From Acinetobacter sp. MB5 (lineage in GTDB: Bacteria; Pseudomonadota; Gammaproteobacteria; Pseudomonadales; Moraxellaceae): a stretch of DNA of 64,000 nt. A program made the translations under genes and the position numbers. The stretch spans positions 62,001 to 126,000 of the forward strand of contig NZ_POVU01000001.1 of NCBI RefSeq assembly GCF_003261585.1, given 5' to 3'. Positions 21,840-33,310 of the stretch are shown piece after piece; position 1 is the first letter of the stretch, and each line of letters opens with the position of its first letter. A model generated the notes under the pieces. The model worked only from the letters and a program-made list of their open reading frames with translations. It ran no database searches and had not been told where the DNA came from.

Positions 21840-24569
21840 TTTTTAAGCTGCCTATATGGCAGTGAACATCTTTCTTCCCACCTTTTAAAATCCCGCCCTT
21901 TTCTAAGCTGCCTATATGGCAGTGAACATTGTCGCTGACACAGGCAATTACTATTCATCTTTCTAAGCTGCCTATATGGCAGTGAACATTTGAAGCACAC
22001 CCTATTGGTCGTGATGTGCTTTTCTAAGCTGCCTACATGGCAGTGAACTACACGGAAATCATGTTGCTATCGTAAATCGTTTTCTAAGCTGCCTACATGG
22101 CAGTGAACTCGGCAATGCTTGGAGTTTCTGGGGGACAGTTTTTCTAAGCTGCCTACATGGCAGTGAACCTCGGCAGTTTGATTGGTTTCTAACGCGCTAC
22201 TTTCTAAGCTGCCTACATGGCAGTGAACCTTCATATTCACTTGGTCAATATCTTTGGCTGTTTCTAAGCTGCCTACATGGCAGTGAACACGGCAGCATTG
22301 AAATATTCAAATCTTCTTTATTTCTAAGCTGCCTACATGGCAGTGAACTCGGATGCCACTCTTAATCGTTCCTGTGTCCTTTTCTAAGCTGCCTACATGG
22401 CAGTGAACGATATTGCTGATGATGGTCAGAATGATTGGATTTTCTAAGCTGCCTACATGGCAGTGAACAGATTCCCAATAATGATTATGATCATTTGATA
22501 TTTCTAAGCTGCCTACATGGCAGTGAACAGGTTGGTGGATTGGCTTTATGTATTCCAAGATTTCTAAGCTGCCTACATGGCAGTGAACATCTTTGCTGCC
22601 ACAATAGACCATGCTTACGATTTCTAAGCTGCCTACATGGCAGTGAACAGTTTAATTTTGGCGGAGGTCATCTTTATGGTTTTCTAAGCTGCCTACATGG
22701 CAGTGAACCATTGTCAGCGCAAATAATAATGCGGTGAAGTTTTCTAAGCTGCCTACATGGCAGTGAACGCCCTGCGATGCTTACACTTACAACAGGTTCG
22801 TTTCTAAGCTGCCTACATGGCAGTGAACAAAACTAGATTTATTCGATCTTTTCTCTAAATTTTCTAAGCTGCCTACATGGCAGTGAACTTGTTCAAGGTT
22901 TAATGGATGCTGCGGCTACTTTTCTAAGCTGCCTACATGGCAGTGAACGGACTTGGGGTAATGAGTTACTTAGGTGTATTTTTCTAAGCTGCCTACATGG
23001 CAGTGAACCATCATTTGAAATTGAAAGTGTAATAGATTTTTTTCTAAGCTGCCTACATGGCAGTGAACTAGATGGAACGAAACACGTTATACATGTTGTT
23101 TTTCTAAGCTGCCTACATGGCAGTGAACCTCCCATTACCCCAAGAATTGTGCCTAAGATTTTTCTAAGCTGCCTACATGGCAGTGAACTCACCTTTACTA
23201 TTTTTGTACCATGTTCCGTATTTCTAAGCTGCCTACATGGCAGTGAACCTAAAATGATTGTCAGAAGATGTGCAGCCAGTTTTCTAAGCTGCCTACATGG
23301 CAGTGAACGCTTGTTTTTCTCATGCCTTATTTCGTGATTATTTCTAAGCTGCCTACATGGCAGTGAACCTAAATTAGCGGGCAAGGCTGGCATTTCCTTT
23401 TTTCTAAGCTGCCTACATGGCAGTGAACAGTATGAATCAGCTGCCATGTGGAACCTGTATTTTCTAAGCTGCCTACATGGCAGTGAACAAAGCTAACATC
23501 CGATACTGGGAAGATACCAATTTCTAAGCTGCCTACATGGCAGTGAACAAAGAGCGACTAAAAGAAGATAGGTACTATTCTTTCTAAGCTGCCTACATGG
23601 CAGTGAACCTTTTAAGCCATTTTCAGTTGCAGCTTGGTTTTTTCTAAGCTGCCTACATGGCAGTGAACAGTTGCAGGAGATATCGCAGGAGCAGGGCATT
23701 TTTCTAAGCTGCCTACATGGCAGTGAACGCCTGAGTTAATTCGTGCGGTTGAGGAGTCTGTTTCTAAGCTGCCTACATGGCAGTGAACATTTTTTAATAC
23801 AACTGCGTCCGCAGTAATCATTTCTAAGCTGCCTACATGGCAGTGAACTTGATGATTCATAATCGATGGCTAATTTGACATTTCTAAGCTGCCTACATGG
23901 CAGTGAACACGGCGTTATAGTCCTTGTATTTTTTTTGCTTTTTCTAAGCTGCCTACATGGCAGTGAACATAAAGGCAACTGGAAACGTCCCAATGGAAAA
24001 TTTCTAAGCTGCCTACATGGCAGTGAACGAAGTTGAATGGATGGGTTTTCAATAGCAGAATTTCTAAGCTGCCTACATGGCAGTGAACTGCTTGGGTGTT
24101 GTTAGCTTGGCTACTGGATTTTTCTAAGCTGCCTACATGGCAGTGAACAGAGAGTGCTTTCTCAAAGCTAATGATGACCTTTTTCTAAGCTGCCTACATG
24201 GCAGTGAACTTTCTTCCTCAGCAGGTAGACGGCACTGGACATTTCTAAGCTGCCTACATGGCAGTGAACCGATGGTGCTGTTTTACGTTGACTTCTCCAC
24301 ATTTCTAAGCTGCCTACATGGCAGTGAACTGTTTGTCGTTGAAGAAAACTCCGTGATTTGTTTTCTAAGCTGCCTACATGGCAGTGAACTACCTGTAAAA
24401 TTTGTCGGCAAAGATTCGTAATTTCTAAGCTGCCTACATGGCAGTGAACATTGGCTGTTTTATTTTATGGCATCACATTATTTTCTAAGCTGCCTACATG
24501 GCAGTGAACGCTTGGAAGTTTCTGAAGCTGCTGAATTGGCATTTCTAAGCTGCCTACATGGCAGTGAAC
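21840..24569 (-). CRISPR. Type I-F CRISPR array, 46 repeats and 45 spacers
   Basis: 28-base repeats every 60 bases. On the crRNA strand (minus) each begins GTTCACTGCC, has the stem CTGCC / GGCAG, and ends CTTAGAAA, the type I-F 8-base handle. Starts: 21840, 21900, 21960; then every 60 from 22021 to 24121; then every 60 from 24182 to 24542. Spacers are 32 bases, except two of 33 (21988-22020 and 24149-24181). All spacers appear different. The three repeats at the low-coordinate end have T for C in the loop, and the last also has one more change, so that is the old trailer end and new spacers enter at 24569 next to the leader. Transcription runs in the cas direction. Confidence 0.98.
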
Positions 24570-24700
24570 TATAAAATTAGCACAAAAAATAAAGCCATAA
24601 CAGTGAGTTAAACCTAAAATCTAGTAAAAGACCCAAGTTTTTACTCACCATTATAACTTATTGATTTTATTAAACTGTTAAAGAGTCAAAAAATATTGGG
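24570..24700 (-). promoter_or_regulatory. CRISPR leader
   Basis: 131 AT-rich bases between the first repeat and the cas6f stop, on the side of the unmutated repeats. This is the usual place of the I-F leader, carrying the array promoter and integration signals. Confidence 0.75.
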
Positions 24701-25318
24701 TTAAAATTCGGGTACAGATGCTTCTGAACTTAACCCATAGGTGCTAAAAACCTGAGTTTCAGATTTTTCAGCAGATTGCTTTTCAATGAACAGCTTAAAC
24801 CGCTTTTTATCATGCTCATCTGAAGTGCTTAAACTCAACATGTCAATATACGGTAAGTTGGTGGTCTTCACGACATGGCTATACCGAGCGAGTGCTTCAT
24901 CAAACCCAATATCTCCACGTTTTACTCGATGACGTGCCAAACGCTCAGCATTAGTTTTAAATTGCTTACGTCTATAAATGGTATAACCTGTGACTTTATT
25001 CTCAGGCACTTCACGTATAGAACTGACATGAACATAGTCAACCAAGCGTTCTAACCACTTACGAATATTTAACTGCTCTAAACTATTTTCAGATGTGGCA
25101 AACAAGCGAAGTTTTTTGCCCAAATTGACTTTAGATTTTTGATGATCTGTTTTTTCTTCATAAATATATTGGGGGAAAGACACACCAATATTGACCTTAT
25201 TATTTGCATCTTTAATTTCAGCTAAAGCTATATGCAATTGCTGATAGAGCTTTGACCAAATCACATAAGGAGAAATTTCAGCTTGATCAATCAAGGTAAT
25301 TTCTTGGTAATAATCCAT
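24701..25318 (-). CDS. cas6f: Type I-F CRISPR endoribonuclease Cas6f/Csy4
   Basis: A 205-residue RNase that cuts the pre-crRNA just after the repeat hairpin and stays bound to it. Seen: the N-terminal ferredoxin-like start (MDYYQEITLIDQAEISPY) and a histidine near residue 29 (YQQLHIALAEI) in the place of the catalytic His of Pseudomonas Csy4; an arginine-rich helix for the RNA stem groove (YRRKQFKTNAERLARHRVKRG); and the C-terminal FSTYGLS with Ser/Tyr residues. Last gene of the cas operon, three bases after csy3, followed by the leader. Confidence 0.95.
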   Translation of the reverse strand: MDYYQEITLIDQAEISPYVIWSKLYQQLHIALAEIKDANNKVNIGVSFPQYIYEEKTDHQKSKVNLGKKLRLFATSENSLEQLNIRKWLERLVDYVHVSSIREVPENKVTGYTIYRRKQFKTNAERLARHRVKRGDIGFDEALARYSHVVKTTNLPYIDMLSLSTSDEHDKKRFKLFIEKQSAEKSETQVFSTYGLSSEASVPEF

Positions 25319-25321
25319 TGA

Positions 25322-26335
25322 TTACTCCTTACCACTTTGACCAAATACTCCACCACGAACCAAAACAGCCATTACATAATGCTCTTGTTCAGCATTAGCT
25401 AATGATTCACCTAAAGCATACTTATCAAATAAGTTGAAAAAGTCGACTTTATCTTTAGGTGTTCTATACGCTTTTCCAAGATTAGTCACAGCACCATAGG
25501 GTTCAATTGCAATTGCCGATTTTTGCTCTGCGAAATCTGGATACCATGTATCAATTGTACGTAATGCATTCCCTACTTTTTGTGAGTGCATGGCAGCAAC
25601 ATGATTCACTTGGTAAAGAATTTTGCTCTTATCGCCTTTACCTTTATCTAATACAAGTTCTTCACTTGGATAAACTTCTTGTGCTTTACCCACAAGAGCA
25701 AATGCTTCCACTTTAATTAACAAATAAGCTGTTTCACCTTTTAAAGCTTTGGCAATTTGCTCAGCTAAAGCATTAACCTTTGTATCTGTGATATCAAAAT
25801 CATGTAGAGGATAATCAAACGCATTAAATGTCACAGACTCTTGCTCATTCACAGTTACAATCACTTCAACTTTTTCAGCACCCACACGGTTTCGCCACAA
25901 AAAACGTGCATTGGCAATATTGAGTGCATAGCGTTTAGCCAACTCTGTAAAACCATATTGCTGAATATAATTTTGAGCAACTTGCTGATAAGACTTTAAA
26001 AATATTTCATTATTACATGCCGAAGGTTGTTCAATCCCACCGAGTACTTTCAATGTAAATGAAAGCTTTAAAGTATCTTGATGTTCACCTAAAGCACATG
26101 CATCAACTTTTTGTAAATTTGCTTTCTCAACTTCTGCATTCAGCTTTAAAGGATCACTCGCAACCGCAGGTTTAAGGCGGTTTGAAATCGTTCCTCGAAC
26201 CGATTTTTCAATCAATTTTAATGCCGTTTGTTCTTCTCGATTATTCCAAGAAGTGCCATAAAAATAAGCATCCGATGGAACCAATTTCTTTTCAAAGGCA
26301 AGTACGCTTGCAACTGTTTTTTCATTCTTAGCCAT
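25322..26335 (-). CDS. csy3: Type I-F Cascade backbone protein Cas7f/Csy3
   Basis: A 337-residue subunit; six copies form the backbone along the crRNA in I-F surveillance complexes. Seen: start MAKNEKTVASVLAFEKKLVP, then SDAYFYGTSW, the RRM-like core with FLWRNRVGAEKVEV, and C-terminal WYPDFAEQKSAIAIEPYG. ATG at 26335 is chosen, with GAGGA upstream; the longer frame to 26386 overlaps the end of csy2. It sits in the conserved csy1-csy2-csy3-csy4 order. Confidence 0.95.
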   Translation of the reverse strand: MAKNEKTVASVLAFEKKLVPSDAYFYGTSWNNREEQTALKLIEKSVRGTISNRLKPAVASDPLKLNAEVEKANLQKVDACALGEHQDTLKLSFTLKVLGGIEQPSACNNEIFLKSYQQVAQNYIQQYGFTELAKRYALNIANARFLWRNRVGAEKVEVIVTVNEQESVTFNAFDYPLHDFDITDTKVNALAEQIAKALKGETAYLLIKVEAFALVGKAQEVYPSEELVLDKGKGDKSKILYQVNHVAAMHSQKVGNALRTIDTWYPDFAEQKSAIAIEPYGAVTNLGKAYRTPKDKVDFFNLFDKYALGESLANAEQEHYVMAVLVRGGVFGQSGKE

Positions 26336-26361
26336 GATGATTTTCCTCTTTATCGTATAAA

Positions 26362-27246
26362 TTAGATTGTTGTTTGATTTTGGCAAAGGTATAAATTTTT
26401 TTCTAAATCAAAATGATATTGCCATAACAGTTGATTTAGACTTTCAATTCGGTATGGCATCACAAATTCACCTAAGGTCAAAATACTTTCGGCAAAACGA
26501 TGTGGCGTATTGGCATCTCGTTGATTTTTAGCTTGTCCAAGTTCAGAAATCCCCTGAAAACCGACAGCAATTGGAACTAGCCAACCTTGGGCTTTACGTT
26601 TTGATGTCCAAGTGACTTTTTGATTTTCATCAATCTGTGAACTATGTGTCACTTTTAAATAATCTAATAAAGTATCAAGCGCATCTTGCCCTGTACACAT
26701 GCTTTCAACCATCAAATCACGGCGCTCAATGAGCACATGCCCAAGCATCAATTTATTTAAAATAGGACGAAGCTGCTGATCCTGATCTTCATCATCATCA
26801 AACTCTAAAATTTCTGGCTTTTTAAAAGACAAAACATCGCCACTGGCAAACTTCATACTGCCAATCAATTGATCAATACAACTCAGCACTTGCGCTCGCT
26901 TTTTATTACCACATTCTTCTAGTTCAATCAGCAACGAAACATCTAAATGACAACGTGCTTCTTCAATAAATGCAGGACGATTACCATCTTTATCTAAAGG
27001 GTTTGCGGTACTCACAATCGAGTGAACAAAGTCACCACGCCCCTTATAGGTCTGTAAATTAAAATCATGACAACTCACCGCAATTTTACTGAGTTCAACT
27101 TCACAACCTTGTGCATGTAACTTACGCTGCAAAGCATGCATTGCACCTAGCCAAGCTGTCATAGCAGGAAATCCAATCGAGTAAGGACTGCTCATGGCAT
27201 TGGCATTGTGAAGTTTTAAATGAGGAATTAAAAGAAAGTAACGCAT
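26362..27246 (-). CDS. csy2: Type I-F Cascade protein Cas5f/Csy2
   Basis: A 294-residue subunit that, with Csy1, caps the 5' handle of the crRNA and contacts the PAM region. The N-terminus MRYFLLIPHLKLHNANAMSS with SIGFPAMTAWLGAMHAL is typical of Csy2. AAGGAG stands eight bases before the ATG at 27246, whose A is the last base of the csy1 TGA (TGATG), so translation is coupled. A TTG at 27249 is possible in frame but not preferred. Confidence 0.94.
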   Translation of the reverse strand: MRYFLLIPHLKLHNANAMSSPYSIGFPAMTAWLGAMHALQRKLHAQGCEVELSKIAVSCHDFNLQTYKGRGDFVHSIVSTANPLDKDGNRPAFIEEARCHLDVSLLIELEECGNKKRAQVLSCIDQLIGSMKFASGDVLSFKKPEILEFDDDEDQDQQLRPILNKLMLGHVLIERRDLMVESMCTGQDALDTLLDYLKVTHSSQIDENQKVTWTSKRKAQGWLVPIAVGFQGISELGQAKNQRDANTPHRFAESILTLGEFVMPYRIESLNQLLWQYHFDLEKNLYLCQNQTTI

Positions 27247-28496
27247 CAAAAAAACTCCTTTGCCTGTTGTAGTGATTTTTCTACATGTTGTTTAACATCA
27301 AGCAACTCACTTGTTCCTAATGTATAAGCATCGCTAATGATTTTTTCATAACTCCGTAATATCCAACGAGCAATTTCTTTACTTAACTCATCACACCAGT
27401 CATTATCTGCTTCTCTTTCTTTTTGATGAATTTTATCTAACCAAATACGCTGTACTTTAGGTAAATTTGCGTAATAATCTTGATTTGACCAACCTTCAGT
27501 TGCATATTCTCTAGTTCTTAATGCCTGTAACAATATTTGATCTGTCACGAACTGAATGATGTTGTATATTGCTGTTCGAATATCAATATTATTTAAATCT
27601 AACTGCATAAACTTATGGAGTTGCATAAAACTTTCTTGATAATTTTTTCGATATAAACATTGCGCAAAAAAATCAGTTTTCGGCAATCGAATCATTCGCT
27701 TTTCTAAAATGGGTGGACAACTTGATAATAAATAAGCTCGTCCTGCATTTTGACTATTTAAAACACTGACATTTTGGGGTTGAGTACCACCATAAGCCGT
27801 TACCGTTAAATCATAAATATCAGCATAACCTTCAGCATCATGCTCATTTTTCTTACGCTTTTCTTTGGCTTGTTTGGTTTGCTCTGAAAAACGTAGAGCA
27901 TCAATTTTTTGCTTTAATTGAGTCATCAAACCAGAAGGTGTCAATATAGACAATAAATGATATTCAGCCTGTTTTATTGGAAAATAAACCTGTTTAATCA
28001 AATGATCCGTTTTATTAACATTTTCTCCATGCTTGATAACTAAAAATGCTTGCTTTAATGTTTTAAAATCAAGAGAAGCTTGCTCAATATGTTGAATCAA
28101 GTCTTGATGATCTTGTTCAAAACCATCTAAAACAGTGTATTGATCTGTCAATTGTAAAGATAGAAATTTATAAACATCCATTGCAGCGGCATTACCAAAT
28201 ACATCTAAAGGATAATCAACATTGCCACTACGTAAATACCCATCATTCGCCTGTTTTGCTCGAACAATGACACTCGATGTTCTGGCGCTCGGATGGCTAA
28301 ATTTACTTGGATGACTCACCATAGAAAGTTGTGTAACGCGCTTTGCAGCATCAGGTAGCCACTCGCTCAAATCAAATTTTTCATTCGCTTGTTGTTGCAA
28401 CTCTGCGATTGCAGTTTCATTTTCCGCCTTCTTTAATCGGTCTTTGAGCCACAGTTCTTTTCGTTCATTTAAAAAAGCGTCAATATTTTCTATCAT
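27246..28496 (-). CDS. csy1: Type I-F Cascade large subunit Cas8f/Csy1
   Basis: A 416-residue subunit that reads the CC PAM and starts R-loop formation. Seen: the charged helical N-terminus (MIENIDAFLNERKELWLKDR), then KFSHPSARTSS and the Csy1 motif SGNVDYPLDVFGNAAAMDVYKFL near residue 90 (written here with its ends only: SGNVDYPLDV...VYKFL), and later YGGTQPQNVSVLNSQNAGR, which is strongly conserved in Csy1. Nine bases after cas2-3. No frameshift seen. Confidence 0.95.
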   Translation of the reverse strand: MIENIDAFLNERKELWLKDRLKKAENETAIAELQQQANEKFDLSEWLPDAAKRVTQLSMVSHPSKFSHPSARTSSVIVRAKQANDGYLRSGNVDYPLDVFGNAAAMDVYKFLSLQLTDQYTVLDGFEQDHQDLIQHIEQASLDFKTLKQAFLVIKHGENVNKTDHLIKQVYFPIKQAEYHLLSILTPSGLMTQLKQKIDALRFSEQTKQAKEKRKKNEHDAEGYADIYDLTVTAYGGTQPQNVSVLNSQNAGRAYLLSSCPPILEKRMIRLPKTDFFAQCLYRKNYQESFMQLHKFMQLDLNNIDIRTAIYNIIQFVTDQILLQALRTREYATEGWSNQDYYANLPKVQRIWLDKIHQKEREADNDWCDELSKEIARWILRSYEKIISDAYTLGTSELLDVKQHVEKSLQQAKEFF

Positions 28497-28505
28497 TTTT
28501 TTCTC

Positions 28506-31500
28506 TTATTTTTTGTCTGAAATTACAAGCCCAAACTGCTCAGAATAAATCAATCGTTTATTTTCATCATATTCAGGTAGCATGATTTCCCCATAGCGTT
28601 TTGATAATTCTTCTATCTTTGCATCAATATCTTCATTTTCTTGCAATTGATCAACCGCCGTACGACATAAAATGTCGTAATAATTTCGATTTAACCATAG
28701 TCGTTGCTGCTCTATTTCATTTAACTTTAAGTATTCAATATGATAGAACCCTGCCCGATCAATATATTGCCCAAAATCATCTTTTAAACAAAATGTAAGC
28801 TTATTATTTTTCCATACTGCGAAAAGCTGAATATTGGGCGAACTTTGTCGAAACGGTGTAAATCGCTGTGGTAATGCTGTTAGAAACCAATACTGGGTTA
28901 ACCATGCATTTAAAGGCTTCGCCCCCAGTTTTTTATAACTGGTTAAAGCATCTGCCAACGCTGCATGTTCTAAATCAGCCAGTTTTTTTGTCGCTTGTAG
29001 CGGCTGATTTTCCTGAATACGCGGAATCGCATTAATTGCAAAATTGACATCACTACTATCGAGTAATTCAGTTAAATTTTTAGTCACTAGCTTAAATTTA
29101 TCGTTATTGATCTCAAAGCCTGGTTTCTCAAATGCTACTTTAGCGCCTTGAAGCCCTTTTAAGTTGTATTGCATCAGTGCAATATTGGGTTGCTGAATAT
29201 CTTGTTCTAACTTTCGATGCCGTAAAACTCGCCCAGCCAATTGAATAATCGAACGATAAGATGATGGCTCTATAATCGCCCAATCAAAATCATGATCTCG
29301 CCCAACTTCTTCCACAGGTGTCGCTACCAAAATAAAAATGACATTCTCGACATCTGTGCTGTCCAAATGCTGACGAATCACTTCATTTGAAAATGCAATA
29401 GGTTGTTCACCTTGTTTTTCTTTGCGTTTGAGTGCCTGATCTAAATGTCGCTCTTGTTCACTGCGTAATAGCATCACTTGTCGACTGTGGTATGCCATCA
29501 CACGTGGAGCTATTCCTTTTGACCATTCAGCATTCAGTAAATATCGAGTTAACCCAACACAAGGTTGGATATTGGCGACACGAATGACACCAAATGAAAC
29601 TTTCTTCCCTGTTTTTTGATCTAAGGTATGGTGTAATTGATGCAAATGTTCTGCTTGCTGCAACATTCTTTCAAAATATTGATTTTGTAAACTTTCATCA
29701 AGTTGCCGTTGCTCTTTTTCAGCCACTAAATCTGCACAATCCACAATATAAGCTTTATGTTTAATTATTTGTTTGACTAATGCATCGACTCGAAACTGGA
29801 CAAATTGATGATGTACCTGTTTATAAATTTCAATGCATTGTGCTTGGCTTGATAAAGGAATCATTTGAACTTGGGTTTTAAACTCATCCACCCACATGGC
29901 AACTGCATCAGTATTTTTTATTTTTTTAAATGCACAGTACAAAGCCCATCCTTGTTGATAAGCATTAAAAAAACCTTCAGCCAATGCAGGTGGAATAGTT
30001 GCTGAAGAAATCATGACTTTACGTCCAAGCATACCAGTCAAATGTACCAAGCGAGCAATCGCAATTAAATCTTGCCCGTTAAAATCATCAACTTCATCAA
30101 TCACCAAATCTGATGAAGATAACCGTAAACTTGGTAGAATATATTTTCCACCACGTTTAGTTTCTGTTGCAGCAATCATATGATCAATCGTGCAGGTTAA
30201 AACAGGTTTATATAAAAATGCCTTGTTTTTCTCTGCCTGATGCTGTGGAAATAAAGCATCTAAAAATTCAGCGTGTGGCATCGCCTCATAATTCAGCTCA
30301 TTTTCTAATAATTCTTCTAATGATTCTGAGCCAATTTCGTCTATTGCTATTTCTTCAGTTTCTTGGTTTTTATGATTTTGTGCATGTAATTCCTGTACAG
30401 CTTTAGAACCTACAAGAACTGCAAGCTCATCATTTTGCAAACCAATATCGTGACGATATGAGTCACCTGTTTGTAGGGTTAAGGTTCTTAAGCCTAAAGC
30501 CAAAATATAACGTAAAGAATCTGCATTTACGGAAAGTGCTTGCATGATTTTGGCATTGGCAATGGTTTTCCCTTTGCCTGTACTTGCCATATTGACAATG
30601 AACCAACCCTGTTTCTGTGCATCTTCATTCTTCTGAATAAACTGCTGAATTCCTTTAACAGCGTGATCTTGCCACTCAAAACCTAGTGGGCTTTTTTTCT
30701 TGAGTTTTTGAATATCATAGGCAAGTTCCATTTCATCGGCCAATCGACTTAAGGACTGTGCGACGCGCATCGCTTTTTCACTGACCCGAACCAAATGCTC
30801 ATCCAAATACTGTTTGGCTTTTTTGGTTTTAGGATCAGTATTTGCAATTAAACTCAACGACGTTGTCCAAGTTTTATCTGCATCACAGGATGAATAGTAA
30901 TGATCGCCCAACATCAAACATAAACGTGCATGGTGCAAAATGACTCGCCAACAGCCATCTTCAAAAATTATCCGATTGTTATGTGTTTCTTGTAATAAAC
31001 GAGCCGACCACTTCTGAATCTGTTTCATCCAGTGTTTAGATTGACTCAATAAGCCTTGCTCAAATTCAAAACACTGCTTTAATCGACGTTGATAGTCTTG
31101 TTCATCAAACTTATTTTGATACCCCCAACCTACCTCAATATACTCAAATAAATCAGATCTGTTTTGCATAGGTTCGGCACTAAAACCACTTCGTTGTTTT
31201 TCATCTTTTAAGTCGGGTAAACGATGATGCGATACGATTAGCCATGCCACCAATTGAGCAAATGGTGGTAGCTGTTCTAAAGCCTTCGCTTGGTCTGTAT
31301 GTTTTAAAATGATGTTCTTTAATATTTCTTCATCCCAAGTGTTTTCAATTAAAAGATTGAGCCAACCTTCATCCGTTTGCTGATTTCCCGATGATTTCAC
31401 CAAGGCATTGAGTAATAAACAGGAAATCCATTCATGTCGAATAGGATCACCTTTATGACTATTTCTACTTTTAGCATCTAATTTTTCTTGAAATAAAACT

Positions 31501-31886
31501 GTCGCCTTACCCCAATCATGTAAAAGTGCAGACACTGCTACTAACGCTTTTATCAGGGGTAAATAATGCCAATCATTTTCCCATTTATTTTGATCTAATT
31601 TTTTTTGCGTCGTATTCACAGGAACAATGCCCTGTGCATTAAACTTATTTCGATTGCCCACAATCCAGAGCAGCTCACTACGACGTCTACCACGAATCCA
31701 GTGACAACTCACTGCGGTACTTTTGGTCACGGTTTTACGCAGCAGTTTTTTAACTGCAATTAGCCCCTCTTCGGTAATGACTGTTTGCCATGTGTTATCT
31801 CCAATTCGGTCAGCAAAGGCATCCAACACACGGCGAGTACGCGGAATCGCTTTCTTTTCACATTGAGAAATAAACGTGACAATCAT
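28506..31886 (-). CDS. cas3: Cas2-Cas3 fusion, nuclease-helicase of type I-F
   Basis: A 1126-residue fusion, diagnostic of type I-F. Residues about 1-90 are the Cas2 domain (MIVTFISQCEKKAIPRTRRV) used in spacer integration with Cas1. Then the Cas3 HD nuclease, with HD at about 123 (SALLHDWGKATVLF); the helicase with Walker A STGKGKT at about 435-441, Walker B DEVD at about 597-600, SSATIPP, and motif VI QLAGRVLRHR. All key residues look intact. ATG at 31886 is used, with AGGA nine bases upstream; the frame to 31943 adds no Cas2 sequence. Between it and cas1, unlike the usual adjacent pair, lie a DUF2188 gene and a degenerate mini-CRISPR. Confidence 0.96.
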   Translation of the reverse strand: MIVTFISQCEKKAIPRTRRVLDAFADRIGDNTWQTVITEEGLIAVKKLLRKTVTKSTAVSCHWIRGRRRSELLWIVGNRNKFNAQGIVPVNTTQKKLDQNKWENDWHYLPLIKALVAVSALLHDWGKATVLFQEKLDAKSRNSHKGDPIRHEWISCLLLNALVKSSGNQQTDEGWLNLLIENTWDEEILKNIILKHTDQAKALEQLPPFAQLVAWLIVSHHRLPDLKDEKQRSGFSAEPMQNRSDLFEYIEVGWGYQNKFDEQDYQRRLKQCFEFEQGLLSQSKHWMKQIQKWSARLLQETHNNRIIFEDGCWRVILHHARLCLMLGDHYYSSCDADKTWTTSLSLIANTDPKTKKAKQYLDEHLVRVSEKAMRVAQSLSRLADEMELAYDIQKLKKKSPLGFEWQDHAVKGIQQFIQKNEDAQKQGWFIVNMASTGKGKTIANAKIMQALSVNADSLRYILALGLRTLTLQTGDSYRHDIGLQNDELAVLVGSKAVQELHAQNHKNQETEEIAIDEIGSESLEELLENELNYEAMPHAEFLDALFPQHQAEKNKAFLYKPVLTCTIDHMIAATETKRGGKYILPSLRLSSSDLVIDEVDDFNGQDLIAIARLVHLTGMLGRKVMISSATIPPALAEGFFNAYQQGWALYCAFKKIKNTDAVAMWVDEFKTQVQMIPLSSQAQCIEIYKQVHHQFVQFRVDALVKQIIKHKAYIVDCADLVAEKEQRQLDESLQNQYFERMLQQAEHLHQLHHTLDQKTGKKVSFGVIRVANIQPCVGLTRYLLNAEWSKGIAPRVMAYHSRQVMLLRSEQERHLDQALKRKEKQGEQPIAFSNEVIRQHLDSTDVENVIFILVATPVEEVGRDHDFDWAIIEPSSYRSIIQLAGRVLRHRKLEQDIQQPNIALMQYNLKGLQGAKVAFEKPGFEINNDKFKLVTKNLTELLDSSDVNFAINAIPRIQENQPLQATKKLADLEHAALADALTSYKKLGAKPLNAWLTQYWFLTALPQRFTPFRQSSPNIQLFAVWKNNKLTFCLKDDFGQYIDRAGFYHIEYLKLNEIEQQRLWLNRNYYDILCRTAVDQLQENEDIDAKIEELSKRYGEIMLPEYDENKRLIYSEQFGLVISDKK

Positions 31887-31950: not shown

Positions 31951-32032
31951 TAATTAAGCTGCCTATATGGCAGTAGATATATCTATTAAAAGGAATACTT
32001 TATATTTCTAAGCTACTTATAAAACCAAGCAG
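31951..32032 (-). ncRNA. Degenerate two-repeat mini-CRISPR (CreA/CreR-like crRNA-like RNA)
   Basis: Read on the minus strand from 32032: a diverged repeat (17 of 28 positions by eye) that still folds as CTGCTT, eight-base loop, AAGTAG and ends in the intact 8-base handle CTTAGAAA (32012-32005); then a spacer of 26 to 30 bases (from 32004 down); then a second repeat with an intact ACTGCC-ATATA-GGCAG hairpin (31974-31959) and a lost tail. Cas6f should cut after both hairpins and release a short crRNA. Starts two bases after the DUF2188 stop. The spacer matches 24 of 30 bases of 32351-32380 beside a CC PAM. Degenerate crRNA-like genes of this form (CreA, CreR) are known regulators of toxins or cas genes in other type I systems. 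Confidence 0.75.
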
Positions 32033-32033
32033 A

Positions 32034-32261
32034 TTAACCCTTAGGTGGATATGGATCATTTCCATGACTATCTTTTCCTGAAATTTTGCCATCCTTGTTA
32101 TGAATGACTAATTCTGTCTTTTGATTTTGACTAATTGCTCTAGCTCTATCTGTAGCCTCTTTTTTAGTATCAAAATGCCCAGAGGAACGCTGTCCTCCAC
32201 TTTGTTTTACATCCCAGCCACCATCTTTATTCGGCACAACATGTGTTGATTTATTAGTCAT
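32034..32261 (-). CDS. DUF2188 domain protein inside the cas locus
   Basis: A 75-residue soluble protein made almost wholly of a DUF2188 domain: THVVPNKDGGWDVKQSGG, a helix FDTKKEATDRARAISQ, then ELVIHNKDGKISGKDSHG and NDPYPPKG. DUF2188 proteins are small, widespread and without known function. AGGTGA stands eight bases before the ATG. It splits cas1 from cas2-3, which normally adjoin in type I-F loci, and is followed at once by the crRNA-like gene whose spacer matches the promoter region of this gene. It is therefore the prime candidate for a gene repressed by the Cascade-crRNA complex, either as a toxin-like cargo or as a leader gene for cas2-3 expression. Both are inference. Confidence 0.8.
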   Translation of the reverse strand: MTNKSTHVVPNKDGGWDVKQSGGQRSSGHFDTKKEATDRARAISQNQKTELVIHNKDGKISGKDSHGNDPYPPKG

Positions 32262-32341
32262 AAGTTAGATCACCTATAAAAAAATTAGAACCAAATGAGT
32301 AAAAAACACTCAGTTTATGACTGTAAAATAACCTATAAATA

Positions 32342-32380
32342 AAATCAACCTATAAAGTTTTACTTTTAATAAGTAAATTT
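32342..32380 (-). promoter_or_regulatory. Putative promoter overlapped by crRNA-like target site
   Basis: Plus strand: CC (32349-32350) then 30 bases matching the mini-CRISPR spacer at all but positions 9, 12, 22, 23, 26 and 29, so the 8-base seed is perfect. Minus strand: TTTACT (32377-32372), 17 bases, TATAGG (32354-32349) is a weak sigma70 promoter wholly inside the site; TTGATT with TACAGT follows 3' of it. The site overlaps the last four sense codons and the stop of cas1. Confidence 0.65.
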
Positions 32381-33310
32381 TGAATTTTCCTTCACCTGAT
32401 CAAACATAAAGTCTAAGCATTTATGCTCGGTAAACTTCTGCAAAATCTGCTGACGAAACTCTTGTTCTGTCATTTTTTCTTTGGCACAGATAAATGCCCA
32501 CGGCAGCACAATCGCATCTTTAATTAAGTCCGCAACATCAAATACCAAAGCACCACGGCGGGTTTTGCCATGCATCACCGCAAAGCTATGCGAAATCCCC
32601 AGTACCCAAAGCGTGATCGCCGCCAACCCATAAGCCAAATAATTACCATGATTAAGAAAATCATTGGCCAAGTCGCCTTGTTCAGGATTACGCTCAAAAC
32701 CGAGTTTGCAACGTGTCGCAGCTACTTTGTACAGTTGCTTGGTGGTCTGAGCTTCAACAAGCAACAAGTCACCGACTTTTTCCTGATGTGGAATTTTCTT
32801 TTGAAACTGAGCAAGGGCTTGTTCGATATCAAGATCGTCGAGGTAAAACCCTTCTGCTTGTAGCTCTCGGTCTTTTGCCCAAATTTTTCGAATAAATTCG
32901 ATACGAGCGAACTGAAACTGTTTTGCGACTTGTAAGCGTTTCGCTTCATCAAACCAAAACTGCATCCAACCTTGCATATACTCCGTTGGGCGATATTCAC
33001 TTTGTGGTGTCATCCATTCAATTTCACAGCCCATAAATAAAGGTGTTCCACCACCGCCTGTAAAACCCACCAAAACACCTGCACTGGCAAGCATCCGCAT
33101 GGCAGCTTGAGTAATTGAAGTGCCTGTACCCAGTAAAATCACTGTCGTGTTAGCAATCGGAATATTCCAATATTGATTTTCATTTTTAGCTTCAGTCAGG
33201 TAAAGCACCCGACCATCTTTTTGCATAACACGCGCATGTTCAAGGTAATAGACATTTGCACGTTTCGAATGAAGAATTGCTTTTAAGTCTGATGGATTCA
33301 GTTGTTCCAT
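32366..33310 (-). CDS. cas1: CRISPR integrase Cas1, type I-F
   Basis: A 314-residue metal-dependent integrase that inserts new spacers with the Cas2 domain of Cas2-3. Seen: start LNPSDLKAILHSKRANVYYLEH as MEQLNPSDLKAIL..., the strand TTVILLGTGTSITQAAM, GVLVGFTGGGGTPLFM, and the catalytic triad region with Glu in LLVEAQTTKQLYK, His in GISHSFAVMHGKTRRG and Asp in LVFDVADLIKDA. First gene of the cas cluster. Its 3' end overlaps the target site of the crRNA-like RNA, so a bound complex could also affect read-through from cas1 into the downstream genes. The 225 bases upstream hold its promoter region and an sRNA-like element. Confidence 0.96.
   Translation of the reverse strand: MEQLNPSDLKAILHSKRANVYYLEHARVMQKDGRVLYLTEAKNENQYWNIPIANTTVILLGTGTSITQAAMRMLASAGVLVGFTGGGGTPLFMGCEIEWMTPQSEYRPTEYMQGWMQFWFDEAKRLQVAKQFQFARIEFIRKIWAKDRELQAEGFYLDDLDIEQALAQFQKKIPHQEKVGDLLLVEAQTTKQLYKVAATRCKLGFERNPEQGDLANDFLNHGNYLAYGLAAITLWVLGISHSFAVMHGKTRRGALVFDVADLIKDAIVLPWAFICAKEKMTEQEFRQQILQKFTEHKCLDFMFDQVKENSKFTY

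Follow-up and report, generated by a model that had tools for sequence, protein, structure and literature searches.

Why should a type I-F CRISPR-Cas locus (CRISPR, clustered regularly interspaced short palindromic repeats) carry, between cas1 and cas3, a small guide-like gene whose spacer fits a site only about 350 bases away? The question is raised by a stretch of 64,000 nucleotides from Acinetobacter sp. MB5 (contig NZ_POVU01000001.1, positions 62,001 to 126,000), hereafter the window, in which a CC-flanked target, a promoter-like pair, an open reading frame (ORF) for a DUF2188 protein of 75 amino acids (aa) and a two-repeat mini-CRISPR follow one another in that order before cas3. The evidence presented below makes it very probable that the Csy complex, guided from the mini-CRISPR, represses the promoter of the DUF2188 gene; the whole account, namely that of a CRISPR-repressed cargo cassette in which DUF2188 would have a standby defence role, is rather likely, judging from sequence comparison.

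A sequence-only reading of this DNA had proposed a mini-CRISPR with a guide-like spacer and a partial match flanked by a protospacer-adjacent motif (PAM). The sequence bears this out, both repeats of the guide-like gene being degenerate. Direct reading of the minus strand from 32004 downward against 32351-32380 gives the 24 identities in 30 that had been claimed, the mismatches falling at positions 9, 12, 22, 23, 26 and 29, and the CC PAM stands at 32349-32350, directly 5' of the target. The match is thus as described, but its length is not: with repeat 2 starting at 31978, the spacer has 26 nucleotides (nt), 21 of which are identical to the target. That chance is an unlikely source of the match was likewise well judged, since 2000 first-order Markov shuffles of the upstream DNA produced no match of this quality over the first 20 nt, whether CC was required or not. 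The runner-up 26-nt site in the 64-kb window lacks CC and differs from the spacer at 8 positions, the target at 5. In the whole genome, a pattern consisting of CC and 20 nt, with every sixth position free and up to three mismatches allowed, finds six matches, the target being the best (1 mismatch), followed by the spacer itself (2) and by four others (3); the latter represent background, because a reversed control pattern also yields six.

The existence of relatives allows a comparison. A survey of the genus covered 175 genomes, 66 of them with a cas3 match, from which 68 stretches were taken (30 loci and 38 more); the Cas1 of the window was located upstream in 48 of these, and the 20 without a Cas1 match were left out. 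The cas1-cas3 junction measures 14-23 nt in 40 of the 48 loci and 349-501 nt in the remaining eight, the window included, and all eight long junctions have the same anatomy, with a CC-flanked target, a small ORF and a two-repeat mini-CRISPR. The cargo is DUF2188 in the window, L033 and L036 and a peptide in L034, L042, L050, L051 and L052. The Cas1 of L051 has a stop after only 47 aa, though the tblastn match covers residues 1-312, and cas1 of this genome may be broken. At the level of the order, 341 genomes (57 with cas1, 52 with cas3) were searched and seven junctions were picked by reading the gaps manually. One of these (L183, another family of the order) supplied a ninth cassette, with a peptide ORF and a mini-CRISPR having a CC-flanked match, and another (L182, another genus) holds a VapB antitoxin and PIN domain pair at 238-806, antisense, between cas1 and cas3, no mini-CRISPR being seen in this junction. 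By eye, the L184 junction resembles a decayed version of that of L182; nothing clear was found in the other four.

Absence of covariation between spacer and target among relatives was one of the outcomes by which the sequence-only reading had proposed to be refuted; in the eight Acinetobacter cassettes the two do covary. Each spacer matches its own CC-flanked target with 1-5 mismatches over the first 19-20 nt, a result equalled, with CC required, by none of 2000 shuffles in seven cassettes and by 2 of 2000 in L033. When 19 nt are compared, spacers and targets of the same class differ by 1-6 mismatches and those of different classes by 7-13. Three seed families, each fitting its own target, can be recognized (TATAAAG/TATAAGG, ATAATAG/ATACTAG and CTATGCA), and L183 adds a fourth (ACTAAGT), its pair having 4 mismatches in 18, only 1 of them outside the sixth positions (3/3000 and 0/3000 in the null). 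A partial match to a nearby CC-flanked site is therefore found in all nine cassettes.

In a type I-F guide every sixth base is flipped out and unpaired. Within positions 1-15 of the nine cassettes, seven of the ten mismatches fall at 6 or 12, where 1.3 are expected (binomial 6e-5), and within positions 1-18 thirteen of twenty fall at 6, 12 or 18; if homologous cassettes are merged, four of seven lie at 6 or 12 (probability 0.008). This pattern provides support for, and not proof of, guide loading in a type I-F complex.

The mini-CRISPR itself has the features expected of a guide gene, that is two repeat-like units around one spacer. Repeat 1, whose first 20 nt fold into a hairpin, begins right behind the DUF2188 stop codon and keeps an intact 8-nt handle, CTTAGAAA, at 32012-32005; this handle is present in all eight Acinetobacter cassettes, where it doubled as the anchor of the search script, and is replaced by CTCAGAAG in L183. 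In the five-pair stem of repeat 2, compared in ten sequences, three pairs show two-sided changes, an outcome seen in 0 of 500 shuffles. A further hairpin of 12-15 bp occupies the gap between repeat 2 and cas3 in all eight Acinetobacter cassettes (window, L033, L034, L036, L042, L050, L051 and L052; fold z -1.8 to -5.5), with a core of the GTTGAA...TTCAAC type in four and of different sequence in the other four. Since Csy4 cleavage at repeat 2 would sever the operon mRNA, this hairpin might cap the new 5' end resulting from the predicted cut.

What does the target control? The sequence-only reading had pointed to a TTTACT-N17-TATAGG promoter and laid the emphasis on cas1. These hexamers are literally present but, as judged by eye, not conserved in the relatives; the conserved pair has its start at the PAM instead and is directed away from cas1, towards the DUF2188 ORF, which, like the alternative cargo of other genomes, was absent from that reading. 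When the eight Acinetobacter cassettes are aligned by eye at the PAM, the pair lies 0-1 nt behind it (after GG) in every case, with TTGATT or a relative (TGGATT in L051) as -35, N17, and TACAGT, TATACT, TATTTT, TATTGT, TATGTT or TATGCT as -10. An independent promoter scan, covering the window, L033, L034, L050 and L052, lists the PAM-adjacent pair in L033, L034 and L052. Because the pair starts so close to the PAM, the Csy complex would cover the edge of the -35 box. Small hairpins can be seen by eye shortly after the point where the DUF2188 transcript is predicted to start, both in the window (32312-32296, stem TGAGT...ACTCA) and in the 5' leaders of L033 and L036 (GAACA...TGTTC and TAGAAC...GTTCTA).

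Features of the cassette and of its host locus in the window (positions counted from the first nucleotide of the window)
Feature	Position	Strand	Remarks
Cas1 gene (type I-F)	32366..33310	-	TIGR03637 E 4e-139
Predicted protospacer, 26 nt	32351..32376	+	overlaps cas1 3' end; 21/26 identical to spacer
CC PAM	32349..32350	+	GG on coding strand; CC in 9/9 cassettes
Predicted cargo promoter	32320..32348	-	TTGATT (32348-32343) N17 TACAGT (32325-32320); -35 abuts PAM
Cargo ORF, 75-aa DUF2188 protein	32034..32261	-	PF09954 E 1.3e-23; PADLOC PDC-S16 E 9.9e-38
Mini-CRISPR repeat 1, degenerate	32005..32032	-	11/28 differ from array repeat
Mini-CRISPR spacer, 26 nt	31979..32004	-	array spacers 32 nt, one 33
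Mini-CRISPR repeat 2, conserved hairpin	31951..31978	-	7/28 differ from array repeat
Hairpin between repeat 2 and cas3 start codon	31915..31942	-	12-15 bp hairpin at this place in 8/8; fold z -1.8 to -5.5
cas2/3 (type I-F)	28506..31886	-	TIGR02562 E 1.7e-276; PF21384 Cas2 domain
csy1, csy2, csy3, csy4 (effector complex and guide-processing nuclease)	24701..28496	-	PF09611, PF09614, PF09615, PF09618
Ordinary CRISPR array, repeat GTTCACTGCCATGTAGGCAGCTTAGAAA	23041..24569, extends below 23041	-	26 repeat starts in 23001-24700

The host locus is of type I-F, as indicated by cas1, the cas2/3 fusion, csy1-4 and a matching repeat; on the minus strand the operon runs cas1, cas2/3, csy1-4 and ordinary array, the latter with 26 repeat starts within 23001-24700.

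The following course of events can be envisaged. The CRISPR RNA-like guide would steer the Csy complex to the edge of the promoter: Csy4 would cut the transcript at both repeats, the shortened guide would be loaded, and the complex, binding at the -35 box, would block RNA polymerase, while the distal mismatches would prevent Cas2/3 from cutting the chromosome. Pairing of the guides with their targets is closest beside the PAM and fades towards the distal end, a pattern that would be compatible with binding that spares the DNA from Cas2/3. Repression and not cleavage, as already predicted from the partial match, is upheld as its likely outcome. The DUF2188 gene would be kept silent as long as CRISPR works, and loss of csy, or an anti-CRISPR protein targeting Csy, is predicted to lift the block and release the cargo.

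As to the nature of this cargo, DUF2188 is a family of 890 proteins (E up to 1e-5), with matches in 474 plasmid records and 31 phage records; Klebsiella accounts for 342 of the plasmid records. Within the genus it occurs in 15 of 173 genomes, in three of which the copy is in the cas slot, and a scan with exact repeat motifs of about 1.5 kb around eight of the twelve other copies yielded two stray 8-mers and no repeat pair. This wide occurrence, without a repeat pair beside the scanned copies, makes the capture of an independently useful gene more plausible than a guide-bound toxin. In the PADLOC label PDC-S16, PDC stands for phage defence candidate; since DUF2188 scores as such a candidate and also occurs at places where no guide was seen next to it, a standby defence, similar to the CRISPR-suppressed immune systems (CRISIS), is preferred to a pure addiction toxin.

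Several observations weigh against this account. The label PDC-S16 marks a candidate and not a function that has been tested. The L033 match, when CC is not required, is equalled by 46 of 2000 shuffles, and the periodicity is counted on few, partly homologous cassettes. The promoter pair of the window is weak (8/12, counted by eye) and unlisted by the independent scan, as is that of L050, and in L183 the PAM is not directly followed by such a pair. Moreover, the 60 nt preceding repeat 1 contain no TATAAT-like hexamer in L051 or in any of the three cassettes with DUF2188, four of the five peptide cassettes having one. Finally, in Acinetobacter WCHA45, where the guide-target mismatches are at 6, 11 and 18, any change of the guide at 2-5, 7-9 or 13-17 is reported to abolish function (PMC10097628), and natural mismatches do occur at such positions (9 in the window, 7 in L034, 13 in L183 and 16 in L033, L042 and L050), a circumstance that slightly lowers our confidence.

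The slot has its own history. Three sister pairs, all with starred support, stand out in a Cas3 tree of 22 close loci: L052, with a peptide, groups with L053, which has no cassette; L036, with DUF2188, groups with L037, also without a cassette; and L033, with DUF2188, groups with L034, whose cargo is a peptide. From such sisters, devoid of a cassette or bearing other cargo, the cassette appears to have been gained, lost and re-loaded. The cas3-csy1 junction is short (9-21 nt) in the eight cassette loci and long (225-469 nt) in seven of the 30 loci (L055-L061), all in a distant cas3 clade; this long junction corresponds to the published CreTA slot. Mutual exclusion of the two arrangements is only suggestive, the clades being far apart. 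A broader proposal, which we put forward tentatively and hold to be slightly less probable than its negation, is that the junction between cas1 and cas3 in type I-F loci serves as a docking site where cargo supervised by CRISPR can be exchanged: a small gene for defence or for a toxin, arriving with its own mini-CRISPR behind a CC-flanked promoter, would come under Csy control, and an anti-CRISPR blocking Csy would fire a second weapon (DUF2188/PDC-S16 or hydrophobic peptides).

Could the cassette instead be an addiction module of the CreTA or CrePA type, in which the DUF2188 protein or the peptide acts as a toxin, killing or stalling any cell without the Csy complex? The peptides are what speaks for it. 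In the five Acinetobacter cassettes they have 36-39 aa, a hydrophobic stretch and two K/R within the first six residues, and their ORFs are argued to be coding because four of them, each of 36 aa, align gap-free; we take them to resemble small membrane toxins. With the L052 peptide as query (E <0.005), 3 of 173 genomes yield matches, every one of them located in the cas slot; this search missed the more distant cassette peptides, so that its reach is short. The VapB/PIN pair occupying the same slot in another genus points in the same direction, as does a 96-bp translated ORF between cas genes of Citrobacter that is reported to be toxic when freed (PMC12055562). However, the absence of a mini-CRISPR pair beside the eight scanned DUF2188 copies implies that this protein need not be toxic, and sister loci do without the cassette, so that we regard addiction as unlikely without being far-fetched. 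We consider as clearly less probable still a CreR-like autoregulation, in which cas3-csy would be transcribed from the same promoter, so that the Csy complex would restrain its own production, with DUF2188 as a passenger. It is true that cas3 lies on the same strand, 72 nt past the predicted cut in repeat 2, and that the scan finds no terminator between cargo and cas3 on their strand, so that cas3-csy may share the control of the cargo, a point that also counts against the preferred account; yet the operon evidently needs no cassette, given the 40 loci with short junctions and the cassette-free close sisters, and in all eight Acinetobacter cassettes it is the cargo ORF, not cas3, that adjoins the promoter-like pair.

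Two further explanations dispense with regulation by a guide altogether. The repeat search reports the two arms as inverted copies of each other (45 nt, 71%), which might act as RNA or DNA without Csy; this is very improbable, because a transcript from the conserved promoter-like pair would start downstream of the target and be without that arm, and PAM, handle and sixth-base pattern would be left unexplained. The idea of an ordinary self-targeting spacer, or of a chance match, can appeal to the AT-richness of both spacer and target, but the shuffle nulls, the covariation, the PAM in 9/9 cassettes and the degenerate repeats make it the least credible of all.

Repression of the DUF2188 promoter by the Csy complex would belong to a mechanism class that is already known (CreTA, CrePA, CRISIS, CreR), in which guides are described as repressing toxins (CreTA, CrePA), cas genes (CreR) or embedded defence genes (CRISIS) (PMC10097628, PMC9458426, PMC12737573, PMC12055562, PMC12409349, PMC13131331, PMC8501985). 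DUF2188 cargo, peptide cargo, the cas1-cas3 slot and cargo swapping were not found in the literature searched, which excluded the CRISIS preprint's own text. If true, our account would enlarge the set of genes restrained by CRISPR complexes by a peptide family and by a protein labelled as a defence candidate, would offer the cassette as a handle on the role of the DUF2188 family, and would provide a comparative signature for finding more such cases (an identical slot with exchanged cargo, a guide and a target that covary, and mismatches at every sixth base).

CRISIS is reportedly described in a 2024 preprint by Shu et al. As defined in the source available to us, defence genes lying between cas genes are CRISPR-repressed and released by anti-CRISPRs (PMC12409349); of this definition, the anatomy (a gene between cas genes and a CRISPR-guided target) is found in the window, L033 and L036, the anti-phage nature of the cargo being represented by the PADLOC candidate PDC-S16 only. 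With CrePA, whose protein toxin typically has a KilA-N domain, the cassette shares a protein-coding cargo and a CRISPR RNA-like guide (PMC12737573), but the Pfam matches of the cargo at E up to 0.001 are to DUF2188 only. With CreR it shares such a guide and a partial match at a cas-locus promoter (PMC12737573, PMC13131331); unlike CreR, named in the latter source for types I-B, I-E and V-A, the nearest gene here is the cargo ORF, which intervenes between the target and the cas effector operon with no terminator in the scan.

Among the toxin systems, the I-E CreT of Citrobacter rodentium is likewise a small translated ORF between cas genes, and its target, which covers a predicted UP element immediately 5' of the core promoter, can be likened to the present one; the differences are the type, the position between cas3 and casA and the guide on the opposite strand (PMC12055562). 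In H. hubeiense the guide is reported to autoregulate the creTA promoter with Cascade, in an archaeal system with an RNA toxin (PMC8501985). The closest precedent is in Acinetobacter itself, where repression of creT by CreA, acting with Csy at a CC-flanked site, is reported to require csy but not cas1 or cas3 (PMC10097628). The CreTA of strains WCHA45, LoGeW2-3 and ANC3789 resembles our cassette in being of type I-F, with two repeat-like units and a CC-flanked partial target by a promoter, and in its short spacer, 20 nt in WCHA45, for which Csy-dependent repression was shown (PMC10097628). That CreTA, however, lies between cas3 and csy1, has divergent guide and cargo and encodes an RNA toxin with a 33-bp ORF (PMC10097628), whereas the present cassette occupies the cas1-cas3 slot, is on one strand and encodes a 75-aa protein or a 36-39 aa peptide; and where CreTA, as a type VIII toxin-antitoxin, has a toxic RNA, the nearest product here is a conserved protein of 75 aa.
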